DNA from: Promicromonospora soli
GTDB taxonomy: Bacteria > Actinomycetota > Actinomycetes > Actinomycetales > Cellulomonadaceae
Reading direction: 5' to 3'
NCBI RefSeq assembly: GCF_014653785.1
Contig: NZ_BNAS01000001.1
Span: 667,898-731,897, forward strand
Length of the DNA: 64,000 bases
Below the pieces are notes generated by a model. The model had not been told where the DNA came from, searched no databases, and saw only the letters and a list, made by a program, of their open reading frames with translations. Made by a program: the position numbers and the translations under genes. Below are positions 15,660 through 27,377 of this stretch, piece after piece (positions within the stretch are counted from its first letter, which is position 1; every line of letters starts with the position of its first letter).

Positions 15660-18600
15660 TCAGTACTGGCTCTTCTTCTCCCAGTCCGGGTCGAAGGCAC
15701 CGCCGTCGGCCACTGTCAGGTAGTCCCGGTAGGACACGGCCAGCAGCACCTTGGGCACGTCCTTGATCGCGAAGAGGCCCCGTTCGCCCCAGGTGCCGGT
15801 ACGGCGAAACACGAGCTCGGACACGGCGGCGGTGATGTTCTCCTCGGGCAGGAACGCTCCGGTGAACTCGATCTCGACGGTGATGCCGAGCGTCGGGTAC
15901 TCCCTGCAGTAGGCGGAGAACCAGCCGGCGTCCTCAGCCTGAGACCGCACGTACCCGAGCTTTGTGGCGCGCCCGCGGATCGTGAACGAGTCGCTCAGCC
16001 AGCCCTTGCGGGTGTCGATCACGGTCGCGTCGTCCGGTACGTCGGGCAGCGCACCAGACGCGCTCGTCCCGGTGCCCAGCCCCTGGTCGAACAGCGGCGT
16101 GATCTCGTAGTCGGCGAGGTGGCCGCGCCAGGCCGGCGCGCCGGACTCGGCGTCGTCCCCGAGGGTGGCGGCGTGCACCAGCGAAACCCTCGCGTCGTCC
16201 GGGAGGGTGACGTCTTCGTCGTCGACGCCGATCAGCGCGCCGCCGTCGCCCGGGCGGAACGTCACGGTGCCGGGGCCGGCCAGGTCACCGGCGCCCGGCA
16301 GCTCAGCTGCCCAGACCAGGCGCGCCGCGAGGCGCGACATCAGCGGGTGTCCCAGGACGAACTCGCGCCAGTCGGCCGTGCTCCAGGTGCGACCAGTGAC
16401 CATGGCCTCAGCGAAGCGCTGGCTCTGCAGGCTCACGACGGCTTTCAGCTCGGCGCGCGACTCCTTGAGCTGCCGCTTCGCCTCCGCGTAGGCCTCGTCG
16501 TCGTCGGACGCCCGCTTCGCCGGCAGCGCCTTGACGACCTTGCCCGCGGGGCTGCGCAGCTCCAGCGAGAACGCGTCGGTGATCCGTCCGGTGACCACCC
16601 GCTCACCCGCTCCATCACCGTCGGGCGAGCCGAGGTCAAGGCGCAGGATGCCGTCGTCGTCGAATCCGGCGGTCTGGACCGTGCGGTCGGCGAGCTGGTC
16701 GCCGTCCCAGCCGTTGCGGTCCGCGATGTCCTGCGCGAGCGCGGACGCGGTCTCCTGGACGCTGCGCTGCTTGAACCGGCGCGAGACGGCGAGCAGCAGC
16801 TGGACTGCTGCCCGGTCCCCGTTCGCGGCAAGTGCACGCACCAGGTACTCGGCCTGCGCGCGACGGCCCTTGTGGGCGGCGAAGTAGTGCTGCGCGGTGG
16901 TGGCGAGCTCGGCCCCGGGCATCCCGACCGTGAGGGCGAGCAGTCCCTTCTCCTGTGTGGCCGAGCCGAGGTAGGTCGCCTGGTCCTGCTTGTAGAGCCT
17001 CTTCCAGAAGTCCTCGACGGTCTGTCCCGCCTGGCCGCCGTAGTACTCGGGATACCGCTTGATCGCGGTCTGGAGGTTGGTCCATTGCGCCTGCGCGTTC
17101 TGGTCGGCGTACGCGCGGGAGGTCTCGACCGAAGGGCCGCGGGTGTCCTGAGCCACCCAGGCACGCAGCACGAACGAGCCGAGTGCGGCCCGGGAGGGTG
17201 GGTCCAGCAGGCCGATGTACCGGGCGATCAGGCCCTCGCCGCTCGGCGACTTCAGCTTGGTGGCCAGCACGGCCCACCAGCGGACCACGTCGCGCGGCAC
17301 GACGCCGCCGGTCGCTGCCCAGCGCACCTCGGGCAGCTGCTCGAAGGGGAACCAGCCGAGGCTCGCGGGCAGCTTGCCCGCCAGTCCCTTGACGGCCTCC
17401 GCCTGCAGGGTCTCCGGGGCGAGGTCGGCCGAGATGTCGTCGCCCAGCGTCTCCAGCGCAGCGAGCAGCGCCGCCCGGGCCGCCTCGCGCCGCTCCTTCT
17501 TCAGGGCTGCACGCAGGGCCGGCACCGCGGCGGCATCGCCGATACGCGCGAGCCACGCGGCGGCCGAGGCGCGCACCTCCGCCTTCGAGTCCGCGAGCGC
17601 CTGCTCGGCCAGGTGCCGCGCCCCGGAGTGGGCCTCCAGGACCTGCTGCGCGGCGAGGCGGTGCGTCTTGCCGGTCCCGAGCGCGAGAACGGTCAGCCGG
17701 GGCAGGAGCGCCGGCGGTAGCACCGGGAACTCCCGCAGGATCTTCAGGGCGGTGCCCGTCTGGCGCAGCTCGGTGTCACCGCCGAGGTAGCGGTCCAGGA
17801 TCTCCGGCCGCTCGGCGAAGTAGGGCCAGGTGACCGACGGCGGCAGCGCGTCGCCGCCCCACCAGGTCTGGAACACCATGTCGCGGATCTGATCGTCGGC
17901 CTTCGGCACCCCGGCACGCACCAGCCCGTCGTGCACCTGGCGCAGGTCGGTCACGTGGTCGAGGTAGGGGCGCAGGGCCCAGGTGAAGTTCGGCTGGACG
18001 CCCCCGTCCCGGAGCGCGAGCAGGCGGATCGCCAGCATGAGCCCGGGTTCGGCGAACAGCGTCCGCATCTCCGCGGTGAGCCACTGGAAGAGGGCAGCGT
18101 GCTGGCGACTTGTCTTGCCCGTGGTGGCAACGGCCCCGGTAACGCGGTCCGGGACAGCCGCGAGGGCATCGTCCGTGATCGACAGGAGGCCCTTCAGGTT
18201 GCTCTGCGCGCGATCTATCCAGTACTTGTTCGACACGCTGCCGGACTGCTTCTTCGCGAGATCGAGCTGCTCCCGCGCCTTGGCGATCTCCTGGTCGAGC
18301 AGCTTCCGGGCCTTCGCCGCCCAACCGGGCTCCACGGCCGCGTCGGGCAGCGGCTCGTACCCTGGGATCTCGATCGGGACGCCCGCAGCGGGGCCGGCGC
18401 CCGGTCCCGGCAGGGGAGCCTCCAGCGCGCGTGACCGCTCCACCGTCTGCTCCAGGAGGCGCACGCGCGCACTCTGCCCGGCCGCGACCTTCCCGTTCTC
18501 GTCCCGGATCGCGGCCAGCGCCTCGTCGAGCACGGCGATGCCACCCTCCAGGCCGACCAGCCGCGTCACCACCTCACCGAGCTGCCCGGTGGGGACCTTG

Positions 18601-19514
18601 ACGAGGTGGGGCGTGAGCAGCGCGACCTGCACGGCGTCGTCGAGCAAGGCGAGGCGGTCCAGGGCGCTCGTCCGGACACCCTTCGCCTTGTCCACGGCGA
18701 GCGTCGCCACGATCTCGGCCAGGCCCGTCTCGCTCGTACGCTTCCCGATACGGTTCAGCACCTCCTGCTTGCCGTGGGCACCGAGCCCTGCGGTGACGGC
18801 GGCAAGCGTGCCGACGTTCTGCGACACGTACTCGTCGAACGCCTGGCGCTCGGCCAAGATCGGGCGCGGGTCCGCGTTCCAGGAGCGCTCGGCGGTCGCC
18901 CGGTGCAGGAGCGCGGTGAGCACGGTGCGCACCGCATCGGCGTCGGGAACCCCACCCTCGATGGCGACCTGCTCCAGGAACGCGGGCGTCAACCGGTCGG
19001 CGACGCCTGCCGCCGACTTGCTGGCGTGGCGCCCGTCGGTCTTCCCCCTCCTGGCACCGTCGTAGACGAGGACGTAGAACCACTCGGGTACGGCAGCGGC
19101 GGGAACTTCGGCGGTCTCGCAGGCCTGCGCCAGCAGCCGCGCCAAGCGGGCCACGACCGGGACGTCGGCCGACGCGTAGAGGCGCCCGCGCGCGGTGACG
19201 CCGCTCTCGGCGTTCCAGCCCTTGTGCACCGCCGCGACCCGCTTGACCAAGTCAGGTGACACCCAGCTCTTGTAGAGCCGGGCCGGGGAGCCGAACAGGG
19301 TGTCGAGGTCGCCGGTGCTGGACCCCTGCACCCTGGTGAGCACCTCGGGTGTTGTGCCCTCCAGCACGTAACCGACGGCGTCGTCGTACAGGCCGGTACC
19401 CAGCAGCTTGAGCGGCGCCAGCGCGTCCCGTACCGCCCGCACCGTCGCGTCGCCGCCCTTGACCCGGTCCACCAGTTCCTGCAGCATCTCGTCCCTCACC
19501 TGGCCGTAGGTCAC
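15660..19514 (-). CDS. DUF4132 domain protein (YehI/MolR-like)
   Basis: A 1284-residue protein, the first gene of the five-gene set. It is mostly helical with HEAT-like segments in the middle (for example SKAEVRASAAAWLARIGDAAAVPALRAAL), and a C-terminal DUF4132 region containing SAYCREYPTLG. The size is close to E. coli YehI (about 1,200 residues, from memory). The GTG at 19514 follows a purine-rich stretch; an internal GTG nine bases in could also serve. No enzymatic residues are recognised. The neighbours suggest it is the large scaffold or target of the AAA+/VWA machine. Confidence 0.85.
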   Translation of the reverse strand: MTYGQVRDEMLQELVDRVKGGDATVRAVRDALAPLKLLGTGLYDDAVGYVLEGTTPEVLTRVQGSSTGDLDTLFGSPARLYKSWVSPDLVKRVAAVHKGWNAESGVTARGRLYASADVPVVARLARLLAQACETAEVPAAAVPEWFYVLVYDGARRGKTDGRHASKSAAGVADRLTPAFLEQVAIEGGVPDADAVRTVLTALLHRATAERSWNADPRPILAERQAFDEYVSQNVGTLAAVTAGLGAHGKQEVLNRIGKRTSETGLAEIVATLAVDKAKGVRTSALDRLALLDDAVQVALLTPHLVKVPTGQLGEVVTRLVGLEGGIAVLDEALAAIRDENGKVAAGQSARVRLLEQTVERSRALEAPLPGPGAGPAAGVPIEIPGYEPLPDAAVEPGWAAKARKLLDQEIAKAREQLDLAKKQSGSVSNKYWIDRAQSNLKGLLSITDDALAAVPDRVTGAVATTGKTSRQHAALFQWLTAEMRTLFAEPGLMLAIRLLALRDGGVQPNFTWALRPYLDHVTDLRQVHDGLVRAGVPKADDQIRDMVFQTWWGGDALPPSVTWPYFAERPEILDRYLGGDTELRQTGTALKILREFPVLPPALLPRLTVLALGTGKTHRLAAQQVLEAHSGARHLAEQALADSKAEVRASAAAWLARIGDAAAVPALRAALKKERREAARAALLAALETLGDDISADLAPETLQAEAVKGLAGKLPASLGWFPFEQLPEVRWAATGGVVPRDVVRWWAVLATKLKSPSGEGLIARYIGLLDPPSRAALGSFVLRAWVAQDTRGPSVETSRAYADQNAQAQWTNLQTAIKRYPEYYGGQAGQTVEDFWKRLYKQDQATYLGSATQEKGLLALTVGMPGAELATTAQHYFAAHKGRRAQAEYLVRALAANGDRAAVQLLLAVSRRFKQRSVQETASALAQDIADRNGWDGDQLADRTVQTAGFDDDGILRLDLGSPDGDGAGERVVTGRITDAFSLELRSPAGKVVKALPAKRASDDDEAYAEAKRQLKESRAELKAVVSLQSQRFAEAMVTGRTWSTADWREFVLGHPLMSRLAARLVWAAELPGAGDLAGPGTVTFRPGDGGALIGVDDEDVTLPDDARVSLVHAATLGDDAESGAPAWRGHLADYEITPLFDQGLGTGTSASGALPDVPDDATVIDTRKGWLSDSFTIRGRATKLGYVRSQAEDAGWFSAYCREYPTLGITVEIEFTGAFLPEENITAAVSELVFRRTGTWGERGLFAIKDVPKVLLAVSYRDYLTVADGGAFDPDWEKKSQY

Positions 19515-19599: not shown

Positions 19600-20967
19600 C
19601 TACGGCGTCAGCCGGTGGAGGTCCCTCGGGAAGGGCGTCACCTCGCGGACGTTGGCCGCCCTCACGAGGCGCGCAACCCAGCGCTCCAGCCCGATCGCGA
19701 ACCCGCCGTGCGGCGGCATCCCGTGCCGGAACGCCTGCAGGTAAGAGGCGTACGACGCCGGGTCCTCGCCCCGCGCCTCGATCGCCGCCACGTAGTCGGC
19801 GTACCGGTGCAGGCGCTGCCCACCGGTGACCAGCTCGAGCCCGCGGAACAGCAGGTCGAAGCTGTTGCTCCACCGCTCGTTTCCGGGACCGGAGCCCACA
19901 CCCGAGCCGGGCTGCGGGTGCGTGTAGAACGGCCGCTTCGCCATCGGGTAGCCCTCGATCGCTATGAAGTCCGACCCGTGCTCCGCCAGCGCCCACTCGC
20001 CCAGCGTCCGCTCGTGCTCGGGGGCAAGGTCGGGCTCGTCGGTGGGCGCTCCGACCATCCTCAGGGCGTCGGCGAAGTGAAGCACAGGGATCTCGGCCGG
20101 GACCTCGGGCACCTCGATGCCGAGCCGCTCGGCGGCTTCGGAGGCGCGCACGGCGTCCGCCATCCCGGCGACGACCTCGCGCAGGACCGCCAGCACGTCG
20201 TGGTGGTCGCGGACGAAGCCGAGCTCGACGTCCAGCGAGCGGTACTCGGCGAGGTGCCGCACCGTGTCGTGCGGCTCGGCCCGGAACACCGGGCCCACCT
20301 CGTAGACCCGTTCGAAGACGCCGACCATCTGCTGCTTGTAGAACTGCGGCGACTGCGCCAGGTACGCGGGCCGGCCGAAGTAGTCCACGGCGAACACGTT
20401 CGCCCCGGACTCGGTGGCCGTGCCCACGAGCTTGGGCGTGCAGATCTCGGTGAAGCCCGCGGCGTCCAGCGTCGCGCGGAACCCGCGCAGGCTCGCCGCC
20501 GCGACCTCCCAGCGCGCCTTCTGCGCGGGGTGCCGCCAGGCGACCGCCGCATGGTCGAGCAGCGTGGGAAGGGCGGCCGTCAGGGCCGGCCGCCACAGCT
20601 CGACGGGCGGAGTCTCGGCGGCGTCGGTGAGCGGCGTGATCACGGGCTCGGTGACCTCCACGCCGCCGGGCGCCTGCGGGTTCGAGGTGACCGTGCCGGT
20701 GACCTCGACGGTGGTCTCCTCGGGCAGTACCTCCAGCGCCCGCCCGACGCCGTTGCGCACCACCACCTGGGCGAGGCCGGTGCGGTCGCGCAGCACCAGG
20801 AACGTCACGGTCGCCAGCTCGCGACGGCGGTGAACCCAGCCCTGCAGGCGCACCATCGTTCCGGGCGCGGCCGCGGGCAGGTCGCGGGCGAGGGTGCGGG
20901 CAGGAGCACTGGTGGGCAGGCTCGGGGAGCTCGTGGACGTGCTCGGGGTCGGCAAAGGTGGTCTCAT
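19600..20967 (-). CDS. aspS: Aspartate--tRNA(Asp/Asn) ligase, archaeal-type
   Basis: A class II synthetase of about 455 residues, shorter than bacterial AspRS and of the archaeal/non-discriminating type, which often charges both tRNA-Asp and tRNA-Asn. An N-terminal OB anticodon domain (VRLQGWVHRRREL) precedes the catalytic core: motif 2 in FRAEPHDTVRHLAEYRSLD and motif 3 in GGFAIGLERWVARL. The second of two adjacent ATGs (20967) is preferred because GGAGG lies 4 bases before it; the first ATG at 20970 is almost on top of the site. A T-box leader precedes the gene. Whether Asn-tRNA amidation (gatCAB) is used cannot be seen here. Confidence 0.9.
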   Translation of the reverse strand: MRPPLPTPSTSTSSPSLPTSAPARTLARDLPAAAPGTMVRLQGWVHRRRELATVTFLVLRDRTGLAQVVVRNGVGRALEVLPEETTVEVTGTVTSNPQAPGGVEVTEPVITPLTDAAETPPVELWRPALTAALPTLLDHAAVAWRHPAQKARWEVAAASLRGFRATLDAAGFTEICTPKLVGTATESGANVFAVDYFGRPAYLAQSPQFYKQQMVGVFERVYEVGPVFRAEPHDTVRHLAEYRSLDVELGFVRDHHDVLAVLREVVAGMADAVRASEAAERLGIEVPEVPAEIPVLHFADALRMVGAPTDEPDLAPEHERTLGEWALAEHGSDFIAIEGYPMAKRPFYTHPQPGSGVGSGPGNERWSNSFDLLFRGLELVTGGQRLHRYADYVAAIEARGEDPASYASYLQAFRHGMPPHGGFAIGLERWVARLVRAANVREVTPFPRDLHRLTP

Positions 20968-20970
20968 CAT

Positions 20971-21125
20971 TCCTCCAGAAGGCGCAGGCCCTGGAGGAGC
21001 GGGCGGGGGCTAGGTCGCGGTGCCACCACTCCTTTGCCGGGGAACCCCGGCCTCTCGTCGGTACGCCGCACGCGCGGGCAGGGCGTTCGCCCGGTCACCC
21101 GGGCCGAGGTTCGTCACGCCTCACG
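20971..21125 (-). promoter_or_regulatory. Translational T-box riboswitch of aspS
   Basis: Read on the minus strand, the T-box core GTGGTGGCACCGCG is present. An antisequestrator can form: GGAGTGG (21032-21026) pairs with CCGCTCC (21002-20996), with the 7-base bulge TGGCACC (21025-21019) and an inner GCG/CGC stem (21018-21016 with 21005-21003). The alternative is a sequestrator: TCCTCCAG (20998-20991) pairs perfectly with CTGGAGGA (20978-20971), which contains the ribosome site of aspS. Both use CTCC at 20999-20996. The bulge TGGC complements a tRNA end GCCA, i.e. discriminator G73, as in tRNA-Asp and tRNA-Asn. A 6-bp hairpin lies at 21050-21037. A short hairpin GAGG/CCTC (21122-21119, 21109-21106) shows GAC (21115-21113) in its loop as a candidate specifier for Asp. 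Confidence 0.85.
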
Positions 21126-21184
21126 CTCGCCACCCAAACGCTATGCCCGACGGCGGCACACCCGCCACCCCATTCCCTGCCCGA

Positions 21185-22180: not shown

Positions 22181-22233
22181 CGCCACGTGATGACACTTTG
22201 TCAGCACGTCAGCGCTGCGTCGGAGGAGACCCT

Positions 22234-22884
22234 GTGAGCCTGCCCGTCGAGGATGACGTCCCCCTGTCCGCCCTGCTGCGTGAGGGCACGCGCACTGACC
22301 ACGCGGCCGCAGAGACCGAGCGGTTCATCGAGCAGCTCATGTCCGGCGCACTGACCCGGGCCGCCTACGCCGACCTCGCGGCTCAGCAGCTCGCGGTCTA
22401 CGAGGCCCTCGAAGCGGCGAGCACCGACGTGCGCGCCGACGACCGCGGCGCCGGCCTCGTCTTCGACGAGCTCACGCGGGTCCCGGCGATCGAGCGGGAC
22501 CTGGCCTTCCTGTACGGGCCGTCGTGGCGCGAGGAGATCCGGATCCTGCCCGCGACGCGCGAGTACGCGGACCGCGTGCGCGAGGTCGGCGGCAGCCTGC
22601 CGCACTATGCCGCCCACGCGTACACGCGCTACCTGGGCGACCTGTCCGGCGGCCAGATCGTCAAGCGCATGATCGAGCGCCACTACGGCCTCGCCGACGG
22701 CGGGCTGGCCTTCTACACGTTCCCGGACATCCCGAAGGTCAAGGTCTTCAAGGACGCCTACCGCGACCGGCTCGACCAGCTCGCCCTCGGCCCCGACGAG
22801 GTCGCCGCTACGGTCTCGGAGGCGCAGCTCGCGTTCCGGCTGAACCGTGCGGTGTTCTCGGCTCTCGCCGAGGTCCACTGCTGA
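22234..22884 (+). CDS. Biliverdin-producing heme oxygenase
   Basis: A 216-residue HmuO/HO-1-type enzyme that opens heme to biliverdin, CO and Fe2+ in the cytoplasm. The proximal heme ligand is His23 in TRTDHAAAE, and the distal helix carries the signature YTRYLGDLSGGQIVKR. The GTG at 22234 is chosen because GGAGGAGA lies 5 bases upstream; an earlier in-frame start at 22198 has no ribosome site. A DtxR-type box about 65 bases upstream points to iron repression. No heme importer is adjacent. Confidence 0.93.
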   Translation: MSLPVEDDVPLSALLREGTRTDHAAAETERFIEQLMSGALTRAAYADLAAQQLAVYEALEAASTDVRADDRGAGLVFDELTRVPAIERDLAFLYGPSWREEIRILPATREYADRVREVGGSLPHYAAHAYTRYLGDLSGGQIVKRMIERHYGLADGGLAFYTFPDIPKVKVFKDAYRDRLDQLALGPDEVAATVSEAQLAFRLNRAVFSALAEVHC

Positions 22885-22909: not shown

Positions 22910-25900
22910 TCAGGGGTGGGGGACGCCGCGAGTGAGCCGCAGCGTCACGATCTGGAAGGGGCGCAGCCCCAGGGTGATCGAGCGTCCGGCGACGTGCAGC
23001 GAGCGCGCGCGGGGCATGCCCTCGGACAGCGGCCGCTCGGTGAGGGAGACCTCGGCGACCTCGGCGACGTCGAACCCGGCCGACAGCGTCGCCTCGGCGC
23101 GCCGCCCGAGCGCCTCGTAGACGCGCATGACGACGTCGCCCGAACGGTCGTCGGCGAGCTTGACCGCCTCGATCCGCACACCCGGGTCCGAGCTCGACAC
23201 GACGCTCCACGGCTCCGCCCGGTGTGCGGTGGTGCCCGGGGCGAGGCGCAGCGGCAGGTTCATGTCGTAGCCGGCCGCCACCGCGTCGCCGACGGACGCG
23301 CCGGGCACTACCGCGTACGCGAAGAGGTGGTGCCCCTGGTCCTGGTGCGGGTCCGGCGACTTCGCGGCCCGCACGAGGCTGAGGCGGACCTCGGTCTCGA
23401 CCTGGCCGTCGTCGCCGACGCTCCGGGTGATGTCGTGGCCGTACGTCCCGGCGTTGACCACGCCGATGCCGTAGCCAGGCTCCTCGACGTGCACCCACCG
23501 GTGCGCCACGACCTCGAACCGCGCGTCGTCCCAGGAGGTGTTCGTGTGCGTCGGACGACGGAGGTGCCCGAACTGGATCTCCGCCGAGTGGTGCTGGGCA
23601 TGGACGACGAAGGGCAGCGACGCCTTGAGCAGCTTCTCGCCCTCGTGCCAGTCCAGCTCCGCCTCGAGGTGCACGCTGGCGTCGTCGGCGTGCAGCGCGA
23701 TCCGCTGGGTCACGCGGGAGGCGCCGAACGTGCGCACCACCTCGACCCGCGCGCGCAGCGGGCCGTCCTCGACGACCTCGATCGACTCGAGCTCGACGAG
23801 GTCGCGCACGGTGTGCCGGTAGTGCGCGTCGATGTCCCATGCGTCCCACGCGTTCGGGAGGTCCTGGTGGAGCTGGAGCAGGTTGGCCGCACGGCCGGCG
23901 GGCACGAGCTCGCGGTCCGCGCGCAGGTCGACGATCGACGTCACGAGACCCCGCGCGTCGATGCGCACCCGCACGAGGTCGTTGCGCAGCACGACGTGCT
24001 CGCCGTCGCGCTCGGCCGTCACGGGCTGGGCGGGCTCGAGCGGCTCGAAGGGGGCTAGACCGTGGCCCGGCACGCTCACCAGGCCGGCAGGGTCGCCGTG
24101 CTCGTCGAGCACGAGGCCGACGCGGGCGTGGTCGGCCGCGTTGACCACCGCGCCGTCCGCCTCGAGGTGCTTGAGCGCGTGCCCCAGCAGCTCGTCGAGC
24201 CGCGCAAAGCTCTGGCCGTACTCCTCCTCGTTCTCCCGGTGCACCCAGGCGATCGACGAGCCGGGCAGGATGTCGTGGAACTGCTGCAGGAGCGTGGTCT
24301 GCCACAGGCGCTCGAAGGCGTCGTACGGGTAGTCGGCGCCGCCAAGGGCCGCCGCCGTCCACCAGAGCTCCGCCTCGCGCAGCCGGTGCTCGACGAGGCG
24401 GTTGCCGCGCTTCTCCCGCGCGTGCGACGTGAAGGTGCCGCGGTGCAGCTCGAGGTAGAGCTCGCCGACCCAGACGGGTGCGTCCGAGTACTCGGCCCGC
24501 GCGCGGGCGAAGAACTCGTCCGGGCTCTCGATCTGCACCCGCGGTGATCCCTCGAGGTCAGCGACGCGGCGCTGGCGCTCCATCATCTCGCGGATCGGCC
24601 CGCCGCCGCCGTCGCCGTACCCGAACGGCACGAGCGACGTCGTGGCCTTGCCCTTCTCGCGGAACTCGCGGACCGCGTGGTGGATCTCCTCGCCCTCGAG
24701 CGTCGAGTTGTACGTGTCGGCCGGCGGGAAGTGCGTGAAGATGCGGCTGCCGTCGATCCCCTCCCACCAGAAGGTGTGGTGCGGGAACTCGTTCGTCTGG
24801 TTCCACGAGATCTTCTGCGTGAGGAACCACTCGACGCCCGCCAGCTTGGCGACCTGCGGGAAGGCGGCGGTGTAGCCGAAGGAGTCGGGCATCCAGATGC
24901 CCTTGGTGGTGACGCCGAGCTCGCGCTCGAAGAAGCGCAGGCCCTGCGTCAGCTGGCGGACCATGGCCTCGCCGCCGGGCAGGTTTCCGTCGGGCTCGAT
25001 CCACTGCGAGCCGACGACGAACCACTGGCCCCGCTCGACGGCCGCCTGGATCCCACGCCAGATGTCGGGGTAGCGCTCCTTGATCCACGCGTACTGCTGG
25101 GCGGACGACGCCGCGAACCGGAAGTCCGGGTACCGCTCGGCGAGCGCGAGCACGTTGGAGAACGTGCGGCCGACCTTGCGCTTGGTCTCCCGGATCGGCC
25201 ACAGCCACGCCGTGTCGATGTGGGCGTGCCCGACGGCGCTGAGCACGTGCGCTGACGCGTTCGCGGGCCGCGCGAGGACATCGGTGAGCTCGGCCCGGGC
25301 GGCGGCCGCCGTCCCGACGATGTCGTCCAGCAGCAGCACGTCGAGCGCCCGTTCGAGCGCGCGCAGCACCTCGTGCCTGCGCGGCTCGGCCGGCGGAAGC
25401 TCCTTGGCGAGCTGGTAGAGCACCTCGACGTCGAACCGCAGCGCCCAGACCTCGGGCTCGAGGACCGCGAGCTCAGCGGTCGCGAACGTGTAGACCGGGT
25501 CAGCCGGGGCCGTCGACTTCTCCCCGTAGACCGTGGGCACGAAGTCGTTCTTGAGGATGTCCGGGTTGGCGGCGGCCTCCATGAAGAAGTGCACCCGCTC
25601 GCCGCCCGCGGCGACGTCCGCGATCGGGACGTACATGTTCCGCGGGTGGATGCCCTTGACGGGGACGCCGTCGGGGGTGAAAACCAGGCCCTCAGCCTGG
25701 TTGCCCGGCCAGTCGCCCTGGAAGCCGGGGTCGACGACCAGCTCGACGGTGCGCCCCGCCCAGTCCGCGGGAACGGCACCCTTGACCTGGAACCACCAGG
25801 TCGACCACGGCCGCCCCCACGACGTGCCGACAGCGAAGTCCGAGTACGTCGCGAGCAGCGCCTCGCCGACCGGGACCGGCTCGTCGGGCACCTCCCACGC

Positions 25901-26002
25901 GGAGAGGGCGACGGGCGTCCGGGCCGAGTAGCAGGCCGGGGTGATCCGCTCGGTGAGCACCCGGTGGATGCGCTCCTCGACGAGCTTCTGGTTCTGATGC
26001 AT
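22910..26002 (-). CDS. Alpha-mannosidase, GH38
   Basis: A 1030-residue GH38 alpha-mannosidase. The metal motif HIDTAWLW lies at residues 262-269 and the nucleophile Asp373 in MPDSFGY; C-terminal beta-sandwich regions follow. There is no signal peptide, so it is cytoplasmic and trims imported oligosaccharides. The ATG at 26002 with GGAAG 9 bases upstream is chosen over a GTG at 26071, which would overlap the GH4 gene. It is the last gene of the DeoR-GH4-GH38 transcript and shares a locus with a fucosidase and glucosamine-6-phosphate deaminase, suggesting mannose-containing glycans as substrates. Confidence 0.92.
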   Translation of the reverse strand: MHQNQKLVEERIHRVLTERITPACYSARTPVALSAWEVPDEPVPVGEALLATYSDFAVGTSWGRPWSTWWFQVKGAVPADWAGRTVELVVDPGFQGDWPGNQAEGLVFTPDGVPVKGIHPRNMYVPIADVAAGGERVHFFMEAAANPDILKNDFVPTVYGEKSTAPADPVYTFATAELAVLEPEVWALRFDVEVLYQLAKELPPAEPRRHEVLRALERALDVLLLDDIVGTAAAARAELTDVLARPANASAHVLSAVGHAHIDTAWLWPIRETKRKVGRTFSNVLALAERYPDFRFAASSAQQYAWIKERYPDIWRGIQAAVERGQWFVVGSQWIEPDGNLPGGEAMVRQLTQGLRFFERELGVTTKGIWMPDSFGYTAAFPQVAKLAGVEWFLTQKISWNQTNEFPHHTFWWEGIDGSRIFTHFPPADTYNSTLEGEEIHHAVREFREKGKATTSLVPFGYGDGGGGPIREMMERQRRVADLEGSPRVQIESPDEFFARARAEYSDAPVWVGELYLELHRGTFTSHAREKRGNRLVEHRLREAELWWTAAALGGADYPYDAFERLWQTTLLQQFHDILPGSSIAWVHRENEEEYGQSFARLDELLGHALKHLEADGAVVNAADHARVGLVLDEHGDPAGLVSVPGHGLAPFEPLEPAQPVTAERDGEHVVLRNDLVRVRIDARGLVTSIVDLRADRELVPAGRAANLLQLHQDLPNAWDAWDIDAHYRHTVRDLVELESIEVVEDGPLRARVEVVRTFGASRVTQRIALHADDASVHLEAELDWHEGEKLLKASLPFVVHAQHHSAEIQFGHLRRPTHTNTSWDDARFEVVAHRWVHVEEPGYGIGVVNAGTYGHDITRSVGDDGQVETEVRLSLVRAAKSPDPHQDQGHHLFAYAVVPGASVGDAVAAGYDMNLPLRLAPGTTAHRAEPWSVVSSSDPGVRIEAVKLADDRSGDVVMRVYEALGRRAEATLSAGFDVAEVAEVSLTERPLSEGMPRARSLHVAGRSITLGLRPFQIVTLRLTRGVPHP

Positions 26003-26015
26003 GGCGTCTGCTTCC

Positions 26016-26042
26016 GGGTCAGTCGGGTCAGTCGGGTCAGTC
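26016..26042. repeat. 9-bp tandem repeat at the GH4/GH38 junction
   Basis: GGGTCAGTC is repeated three times without change (26016-26024, 26025-26033, 26034-26042). It spans the GH4 stop codon and the spacer before the mannosidase start. Confidence 0.85.
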
Positions 26043-27377
26043 GAGGTAGGACAGCTCGGGGAACGTGGCACGAGCGCTGTCGAGCAGGGCGTCGGCCACC
26101 CGGACCGAGTCGACGAGCGGGTGGTGGGCCAGGGCCCGCAGCGCCGCCGCGCGTGAGCCGCCGATCCCGGCCTCGATGGTCTCGCGCTCGACGTACTTGA
26201 CCGTCGTCACCAGCCCGCGGCCGAAGTCCGGCACCTGGGCGCCGGGGATCGGGTGCGCGCCGGAGGCGTCGACGATGCAGGGCACCTCGACGACGGCGTC
26301 GTCGTCCAGCCAGGGGATCGTGCCCGCGTTGGGGACGTTGAGGATGAGGCGCGAGTGCTCGTCGTACGCGATCCCGCGCATCAGCGAAATCGCCACGTTC
26401 TCGTAGCCCCCGGAGACCAGGTCGTCCGCGTTGCGCTCCCCCATCCCCACGGAGTCGCGGCTGGTCGCCATGTACGTGGCCTCCCGGTCGAGCCGCGCGG
26501 CCTCCCAGACGGCGAGCGGGTCGGGCGCGCCGTGCGCGTCGGACCAGAAGGCGGCCTGCTGCTCCAGGAGGTAGCGGGCCCGCGTGTGGGAGGCGAGCTG
26601 GTCGGAGTGGAGCACCTCGCGCCGGTACGAGTAGTAGTGCAGGTACTCGTTCGGCAGCACGCCCAGGGTCTGGATCCACTCGGCGCCGAAGAGCCGGCCC
26701 TCCTCGAAGGCCTCGATCTGCTGCGGCCGCCTCAGCAGCTCGGGCAGGCGGTCGACGCCGTCGACCCGCAGGCTGGTCACCCAGCCCAGGTGGTTGAGCC
26801 CGGCGTAGTCCACCTCGACGTTCGGGCCGGTCGGCAGGCCCAGCGCGGACAGCGCCCGGCGGGCCAGCCCGATCGGCGAGTCGCAGATGCCGATGACCCG
26901 GCTCCCGAGCACCTGCGCCATGGCCTCGGTGACCAGGCCGGCGGGGTTGGTGAAGTTGATGACCCAGGCGTCCGGCGCCACCCGCTTCACGACCTCGGCG
27001 AGGTGCATGACCGTGGGCAGCGTGCGCAGGGCGTAGGAGATACCGCCGAAGCCCACCGTCTCCTGCCCGATCACCCCGTGCGCCAGCCCGATGGTCTCGT
27101 CGTTCGCCCGGCCCTCGATGCCCCCGACCCGGATGGCCGAGAACACGAAGTCGGCCCCCCGCAGGCCCTCGGCCAGGTCCGTGTGGGTGGTGACGGCGGG
27201 GGCGTCGGCCACGCCCTGGGCCTGGGTGGCCAGGATGCGGGTCATCGTCCGCAGGCGGGCCTCGTCGGTGTCGACCAGCGCCACTGACGTCACTCGCCCG
27301 GGCGCGCGGTCGCGCAGCAGCGCGGCGTAGACGAGCGGTGTGCGGAACCCGCCGCCACCGATCATGGTCAGTCTCAT
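26037..27377 (-). CDS. GH4 6-phospho-beta-glucosidase-like enzyme
   Basis: A 446-residue GH4 enzyme, a family that hydrolyses glycosides through NAD+ and Mn2+ rather than two carboxylates. The N-terminus is an NAD-binding fold (MRLTMIGGGGFRTP). The segments NFTNPAGLVTEAM, CDSPIGLARRAL and GLNHLGWVTSL match the 6-phospho-beta-glucosidase branch. No PTS genes are nearby, so the phosphorylated substrate may come from the adjacent PfkB kinase or the enzyme may act on unphosphorylated sugars. The ATG overlaps the DeoR stop (ATGA). Confidence 0.88.
   Translation of the reverse strand: MRLTMIGGGGFRTPLVYAALLRDRAPGRVTSVALVDTDEARLRTMTRILATQAQGVADAPAVTTHTDLAEGLRGADFVFSAIRVGGIEGRANDETIGLAHGVIGQETVGFGGISYALRTLPTVMHLAEVVKRVAPDAWVINFTNPAGLVTEAMAQVLGSRVIGICDSPIGLARRALSALGLPTGPNVEVDYAGLNHLGWVTSLRVDGVDRLPELLRRPQQIEAFEEGRLFGAEWIQTLGVLPNEYLHYYSYRREVLHSDQLASHTRARYLLEQQAAFWSDAHGAPDPLAVWEAARLDREATYMATSRDSVGMGERNADDLVSGGYENVAISLMRGIAYDEHSRLILNVPNAGTIPWLDDDAVVEVPCIVDASGAHPIPGAQVPDFGRGLVTTVKYVERETIEAGIGGSRAAALRALAHHPLVDSVRVADALLDSARATFPELSYLD

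Follow-up and report, generated by a model that had tools for sequence, protein, structure and literature searches.

Genomic context of the leader

The window, meaning the whole stretch of DNA analysed here, comprises 64,000 nt of Promicromonospora soli (GCF_014653785.1, NZ_BNAS01000001.1, positions 667,898-731,897, forward strand). Its minus strand carries a leader immediately 5' of the synthetase gene aspS2 (19600-20970, 455-456 aa), which encodes an archaeal-type aspartyl-tRNA synthetase (AspRS). Translation probably begins at the second ATG, 20967, since the first is found in only 7 of 21 window-type leaders. Directly downstream of aspS2, and possibly in the same transcript, lies a 1284-aa DUF4132/HEAT-repeat ORF (15660-19514, minus strand). 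Genes for a heme oxygenase (22198-22884, plus strand) and a GH38 alpha-mannosidase (22910-26071, minus strand) are also near the locus.

The initial annotation placed the leader at 20971-21125. Rechecking of the coordinates located the element on the minus strand as described, and its content stands; the RNA 5' start, however, probably lies a few bases upstream of 21125, because a -10-like UAGCGU occupies 21143-21138 and the basal helix begins at 21131. A TANNNT-like hexamer is seen by eye at the corresponding place in most leaders, though not in all. In the order of the RNA, the features are:

21138-21143, minus strand: putative -10 element UAGCGU; RNA start expected a few bases downstream
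21123-21131, minus strand: GGCG-A-GCGU, 5' arm of P1 (the basal stem I helix); from own-versus-swapped arm energies and counted inner pairs
21106-21122, minus strand: specifier hairpin GAGG-CGUGACGAA-CCUC; 98.8% of cells paired, one pair changed on both sides
21113-21115, minus strand: specifier GAC (Asp codon) inside the 9-nt apical loop; GAC in 39 of 39 rows
21089-21104, minus strand: second hairpin GCCCGG-GUGA-CCGGGC, enclosed by P1 and forming the junction's third arm
21077-21086, minus strand: P1 3' arm ACGC-CC-UGCC; from own-versus-swapped arm energies
21056-21072, minus strand: probable bulged hairpin CGU-G-CGG-CGUA-CCG-ACG, drawn by eye inside a 25-nt element
21052-21056, minus strand: RRRxG purine string GAGAG, 5' of stem III; fits the published motif RRRxG-stem III-AA
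21036-21051, minus strand: stem III GCCGGGG-UU-CCCCGGC; three of four counted pairs changed on both sides
21034-21035, minus strand: AA 3' of stem III, often GA in relatives
21026-21033, minus strand: helix A1 5' strand AGGAGUGG; from covariation
21019-21025, minus strand: T-box bulge UGGCACC, whose UGGC is predicted to pair with G73-CCA
21016-21018, minus strand: helix A2 5' strand GCG; from pairing counts
21003-21005, minus strand: helix A2 3' strand CGC; from pairing counts
20995-21002, minus strand: helix A1 3' strand CCGCUCCU; from covariation
20991-20998, minus strand: sequestrator 5' strand UCCUCCAG; its UCCU also belongs to the A1 3' strand
20971-20978, minus strand: sequestrator 3' strand CUGGAGGA, containing the Shine-Dalgarno sequence GGAGG
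19600-20967, minus strand: aspS2, archaeal-type AspRS, with likely start ATG 20967, against 20970 for the listed ORF

A conserved putative switch in front of the ribosome-binding site

The 3' half of the leader can form two mutually exclusive structures. Helix A1 (AGGAGUGG/CCGCUCCU) and the sequestrator (UCCUCCAG/CUGGAGGA) are each 8 bp long and have UCCU (20998-20995) in common; the antisequestrator, UGGCACC bulge and 8-bp sequestrator with four shared bases proposed in the initial annotation were all recovered. The 7-nt bulge between A1 and A2 follows the T-box pattern UGGNACC, with N matching base 73 of the tRNA, and GAGAG-stem III-AA in the window follows the pattern RRRxG-stem III-AA. The fold of this single leader is no more stable than that of shuffled sequences (z -0.02), which made comparative analysis necessary.

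The leader is present in all 39 AspRS2 rows, which represent 38 distinct records because L124 and L038, with identical proteins and contigs of equal length (4127 bases), appear to be one. Among 59 genomes including the window's own, 17 have an AspRS2 orthologue (at least 71% identity), and the leader precedes it in all 17. It is also found at each of the best 9 of 80 loci from named genomes (at least 61% identity) and in all 13 further rows from 297 genomes of the order and 396 of the phylum. AspRS2 itself is patchy, occurring in 14 of the 297 order genomes and 2 of the 396 phylum genomes (E 1e-90; both counts include the window's own).

Alignment of these leaders, which the initial annotation had proposed as a check, revealed compensatory changes. 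Across A1, A2 and outer stem III, 98.3% of cells are paired and 7 pairs have changed on both sides, among 36 distinct discriminator sequences. All 500 shuffles fall below this pairing on four of five measures, and 499 do on the fifth; slid controls reach 36-50% paired. The sequestrator is paired in 85.8% of cells; three measures beat all 500 shuffles and two do not (468/500 and 91/500). Column 78 covaries with its partners in both structures: UA 20, AU 14 and CG 2 against the A1 partner, and AU 12, UA 12, GU/UG 4 and unpaired 8 (of 36) against the sequestrator partner, as expected from two alternative helices. The bulge reads UGGCAC[CA] in 39 of 39 AspRS2 rows, and A2 begins GGG in L042 and L043.

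In 36 of 39 rows the sequestrator hairpin exceeds the antisequestrator in stability; the median difference is 4.2 kcal/mol, so the default state should be off. It is very improbable that control acts on transcription termination and not on translation initiation. The long-stem-I relatives described below do resemble the RF00230 kind of T-box, which is mostly transcriptional, and in one of them, L044, A1 overlaps with what by eye is a strong terminator-like hairpin. Against this, the Shine-Dalgarno sequence is fully paired in the predicted off hairpin of 32 of 39 rows and partly paired in 6, the exception being L044, where it is unpaired; the window's own off hairpin ends at the start codon and lacks a U run.

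Stem I and the element that follows it

A GAC triplet in a short upstream loop had been noted, and it was located at 21115-21113 in a 9-nt apical loop; across the window's group this loop measures 7-10 nt. Own P1 arms pair better than swapped ones in 26 leaders (-12.6 versus -10.3 kcal/mol, 0/5000) and in 17 leaders hand-picked as diverged (0/5000), in a test restricted to arms beside the specifier stem and ahead of the conserved element. A cruder first test that admitted any contiguous helix was not significant (442/2000). In a separate comparison with arms set by hand, L007, L010, L015 and L016 show unpaired positions. With the second hairpin enclosed by P1, stem I in the window's group is mostly modelled as a three-way junction. 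This second hairpin varies in length and sequence among leaders and is absent from L012.

Downstream of P1, a 25-nt element (21052-21076) is nearly invariant and ends in GAGAG. Because it is mostly invariant, covariation cannot decide its pairing: a different drawing of its hairpin, one of three considered, is paired in 95.2% of cells, and the element may instead form another hairpin or a minimal IIA/B pseudoknot.

Agreement between specifier and downstream gene

All 39 rows have GAC as their specifier. The search was extended with R1, a covariance model of the discriminator built from these leaders. Among the 59 genomes, R1 gave 17 strong matches (at least 84.6 bits), exactly in the genomes with AspRS2, and the next match scored 26.8 bits. 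In 394 genomes of the class it gave 25 matches at E 0.001; 3 were already known, leaving 22 new loci. Downstream of these lie 18 AspRS2 genes (best pieces 58-79% identical; L201 is a partial match only, 87 aa at 58%), one divergent archaeal-type AspRS (L209, 35% identity), two bacterial-type AspRS genes and one seryl-tRNA synthetase (SerRS) gene. The specifier is GAC at 21 of the 22 new loci, all preceding AspRS, and UCC in the SerRS leader; that of L217, in a six-base loop, was read by eye. Codon and synthetase thus agree in 60 of 60 cases, with GAC before 59 AspRS genes and UCC before one SerRS gene. The strongest argument that the triplet is read comes from this natural swap from GAC/AspRS to UCC/SerRS. 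At 21 of the 22 loci the bulge is UGGC; in L216 it is UGGU, a mismatch to G73.

These data also bear on whether the conservation could reflect a leader peptide or a protein-binding leader instead of tRNA sensing. In the window's group, a short frame containing an Asp codon can be read by eye in GUG-AGG-CGU-GAC. The frame is absent from L039, L041 and L118 (by eye), the compensatory changes preserve pairing, and specifier and synthetase switch jointly at the SerRS locus, which makes this explanation barely credible.

The SerRS at L211 (G885, 180-1469), from a large actinobacterial genome, scores 362.6 bits against TIGR00414 (cut-off 301.65), and its UCC leader is a probable Ser T-box. The two bacterial-type AspRS genes, at L200 (G127) and L202 (G085), are preceded by ultrashort Asp leaders. 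As AspRS2 was not found in G085 at E 1e-90, the leader there may control the main AspRS.

The aspS2 product and the tRNAs of its genome

The aspS2 product scores 521.1 bits against NF003483, 'aspartate--tRNA(Asn) ligase' (cut-off 353), in line with the non-discriminating AspRS named in the initial annotation, and 329.4 bits against TIGR00458 (aspS_nondisc), under the cut-off of 368.4. It lacks the GAD domain, the insertion that is described as separating bacterial from archaeal-type AspRS (PMC4206432); the other AspRS of the genome (G000:C1:191258-192913) has it. The window's genome contains gatB and no asparaginyl-tRNA synthetase (AsnRS) above cut-off, so the cell needs Asp-tRNA(Asn). The tRNA-Asp (anticodon GUC) and tRNA-Asn found in this genome both carry G73, in keeping with the prediction that the bulge fits a G73 tRNA of either kind. 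The tRNA-Asn also has the U1-A72 pair that bacterial GatCAB is reported to require (PMC4206432). Taken together, the NF003483 match, the missing GAD domain, the second AspRS, gatB, the lack of an AsnRS and the U1-A72 pair identify aspS2 as an additional archaeal-type AspRS gene, whose product is probably non-discriminating.

An enzyme that supplies Asp-tRNA(Asn) to GatCAB might be controlled by a leader sensing tRNA-Asn, or both tRNAs, and the initial annotation had suggested that it could respond to Asn as well. UGGC would fit tRNA-Asn (G73, U1-A72), GatB is present with no AsnRS over cut-off, and the window's loop has AAC one base past GAC. That suggestion is not supported: the specifier place is GAC in 59 of 59 AspRS leaders, so the conservation of a GAC or AAC specifier that the annotation had itself named as decisive is borne out by GAC. 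The loop contains AAC in 8 of 39 rows, always outside the specifier position, and the leader also precedes bacterial-type AspRS genes. Sensing of tRNA-Asn is accordingly improbable, if somewhat less so than control by termination.

The leader is, with high confidence, a translational T-box that reads tRNA-Asp through an unlisted architecture and stands before a second, probably non-discriminating AspRS. The translational Asp T-box with an ultrashort stem I that was first proposed is thus backed by conservation, covariation, specifier-gene agreement and tRNA sequences. By analogy with known T-boxes, from which tRNA binding, aminoacylation sensing and the direction of control are inferred, GAC in the apical loop of the very short stem I would pair with anticodon GUC, and bulge UGGC with the 3' GCCA of the uncharged tRNA. 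This pairing would stabilise A1; with A1 held together, its 3' strand would be kept from the more stable sequestrator, leaving the aspS2 Shine-Dalgarno sequence free. Charged tRNA would be unable to hold A1, and the ribosome site would close. The second, archaeal-type AspRS is therefore expected to be switched on when tRNA-Asp is poorly charged.

Comparison with the published T-box classes

The initial annotation had pointed to the Rfam T-box models, but RF00230 (gathering cut-off 93 bits) does not match the window leader. In the window, no Rfam family reaches its gathering cut-off, and over 351 bases at E up to 10 there is no T-box match, only five chance-level matches to other families. RF00230 does recognise six rows (L040, L042-L045, L129) with a canonical long stem I and GAA-GAC, matching 6 of 6 at E 8e-14 to 2e-4 and 36.6-72.8 bits, all under the cut-off, and 0 of 5 ultrashort forms tested.

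An AspRS tree (46 rows, 7 outgroup rows) places five of six long forms outside the ultrashort leaders, and the window's leader type forms one clade in it (support 100/99). Since most long forms lie outside, stem I seems to have been eroded to give the ultrashort leaders. L040 and the ultrashort groups join at a fork that the tree does not resolve, a position that fits one loss of distal stem I as well as several. L044, a long-stem-I Asp T-box upstream of aspS in a metagenome-assembled genome labelled Chloroflexi, lies outside the actinobacterial ones in the tree.

At least four T-box classes have been distinguished, with tRNA binding augmented by a distal stem I motif (IDTM), a stem II S-turn, or both (PMC10482949). 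A distal stem I with the IDTM marks classes I and II, whereas the window's stem I ends in the specifier loop, and no distal stem I was found in the 33 ultrashort rows or 7 new ones. Class IV has a side-bulge specifier in an intermediate stem I; here the specifier lies in the apical loop. The apical loop of class III is given as 5 or 6 nt (PMC10482949), compared with 9 nt in the window. The string AGUA, a motif test for the S-turn, occurs between specifier and stem III in 0 of 33 ultrashort rows and 0 of 7 new ones; the AGUA of L121 and L128 is located in the stem III loop. As a control, the class III stem I pattern of ileS was found in 48 of the 59 genomes, including the window's; 30 of 30 fetched loci precede IleRS, and AGUA occurs in 25 of 30. 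Its lack in 5 of 30 controls means that absence of the motif alone is no proof that the S-turn is absent. The sequences suggest that the leader lacks recognisable avidity elements, both the elbow contact of distal stem I and the stem II S-turn, of which every published class possesses one or more. Its predicted architecture does not correspond to any of the four classes in the literature.

The leader and the class III ileS T-box, known from Nocardia farcinica and M. tuberculosis and also present in the window's genome, have in common a short stem I with an apical specifier loop, a purine-flanked stem III, A1/A2 with a UGGN bulge, and Shine-Dalgarno sequestration. The ileS T-box differs in its Ile specifier with UGGU, in a stem II S-turn, not recognisable in the window leader, and in a IIA/B pseudoknot, of which the leader's 25-nt element may be a minimal form; the leader differs in the three-way junction of its stem I. 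It could nevertheless be an ordinary class III translational T-box with a diverged stem II, the hairpin inside P1 being that stem II, with a cryptic S-turn docking on the specifier-anticodon helix. Class III is the local norm, as the 48 genomes show, AGUA is missing from some ileS controls, and the Asp leader L217 combines an ultrashort stem I with an S-turn-like string. Yet the second hairpin sits inside P1 rather than after stem I, is variable in loop and length and missing in L012, and in L039, L041 and L127 only about 13-16 nt (by eye) separate stem I from stem III. On balance this account is unlikely, though it deserves more weight than the other alternatives.

A bolder reading, to which we lean only slightly, is a fifth T-box class: a tRNA-Asp sensor derived by erosion from a canonical long-stem-I T-box, which would have lost both avidity elements and grip its tRNA by just 3 codon and 4 acceptor pairs on a compact scaffold. 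The scaffold would be a K-turn-like or three-way-junction stem I, with the conserved hairpin in the window's group. According to a review, a truncated stem I barely binds tRNA when stem II is missing (PMC7583486); on this view, the ultrashort Asp architecture should bind weakly unless stem II has been replaced.

L217 (G762) has the ultrashort stem I GGAG-CAGACA-CUCC. L216, from the same family, has a long stem I along with its UGGU bulge, and comparison of the two by eye suggests that L217 is a separate truncation of stem I.

The class III ileS T-box of the window's genome (L188, G000:C4:249765-249794) is canonical; RF00230 at E 0.001 did not report it there, and neither did R1 at E 0.1. R1 gave a single match in that genome, and the idea that the leader is its only T-box was dropped once the pattern search had found the ileS one.

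Relation to known systems and implications

Class II glyQS T-boxes offer another likeness, as a linker takes the place of stem II in L039, L041 and L127 and, by eye, in L040 and L045. They differ in having a long stem I with an elbow-binding IDTM, in being glycine-specific and in acting on transcription (PMC10482949).

Saad et al. reportedly described, in 2012 and 2013, a C. acetobutylicum T-box of tRNA-dependent amidation genes, a leader with two codons that senses the tRNAs for Asn and Glu. The two systems are alike in placing T-box control beside a redundant AspRS and GatCAB, whereas the window leader has GAC only, an ultrashort stem I and translational control.

An extra AspRS together with GatCAB is also described for the second archaeal-type AspRS of Deinococcus and Thermus and for Actinomycetales, where extra AspRS genes were already known in species without AsnRS; the part of that source bearing on the actinobacterial genes mentions no T-box (PMC4206432). 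Actinobacterial T-boxes have been reported before ileS (PMC1262725), and a survey that included Symbiobacterium counted 32 T-boxes, spread over 12 of 19 actinobacterial genomes, with only ileS named in the portion concerned (PMC2494555). TBDB searched Actinobacteria with a class II model of its own (PMC7778990). Within the sources available in part, a literature search found no Asp T-box described in Actinobacteria; TBDB may include some such leaders.

The leader kind described here is overlooked by the Rfam T-box model. A whole lineage seemingly without elbow contact and S-turn, with a normal class III ileS T-box found alongside in one cell, makes the minimum requirement for reading a tRNA directly testable. 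The series of leaders before orthologous genes, from full-length forms down to about 110 nt (L041), also makes riboswitch erosion traceable. For these Actinobacteria, uncharged tRNA-Asp emerges as the likely trigger of the second AspRS. Its patchy occurrence under a tRNA-Asp sensor, and the analogy with auxiliary synthetases, which can confer antibiotic self-resistance (PMC9437257), suggest that aspS2 may serve as an inducible backup when tRNA-Asp is poorly charged.

Beyond AspRS2, a scan of 71 further archaeal-type AspRS loci (L046-L116; at most 46% identity, or 58% for the fragment L078) found a bulge-like string in 15. It was not found in the actinobacterial L107, L108 and L116, so the leader seemingly does not precede every actinobacterial archaeal-type AspRS. 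One genome, G151, has two aspS2 copies with leaders (L121 and L128), and L121 carries an in-frame TAG.
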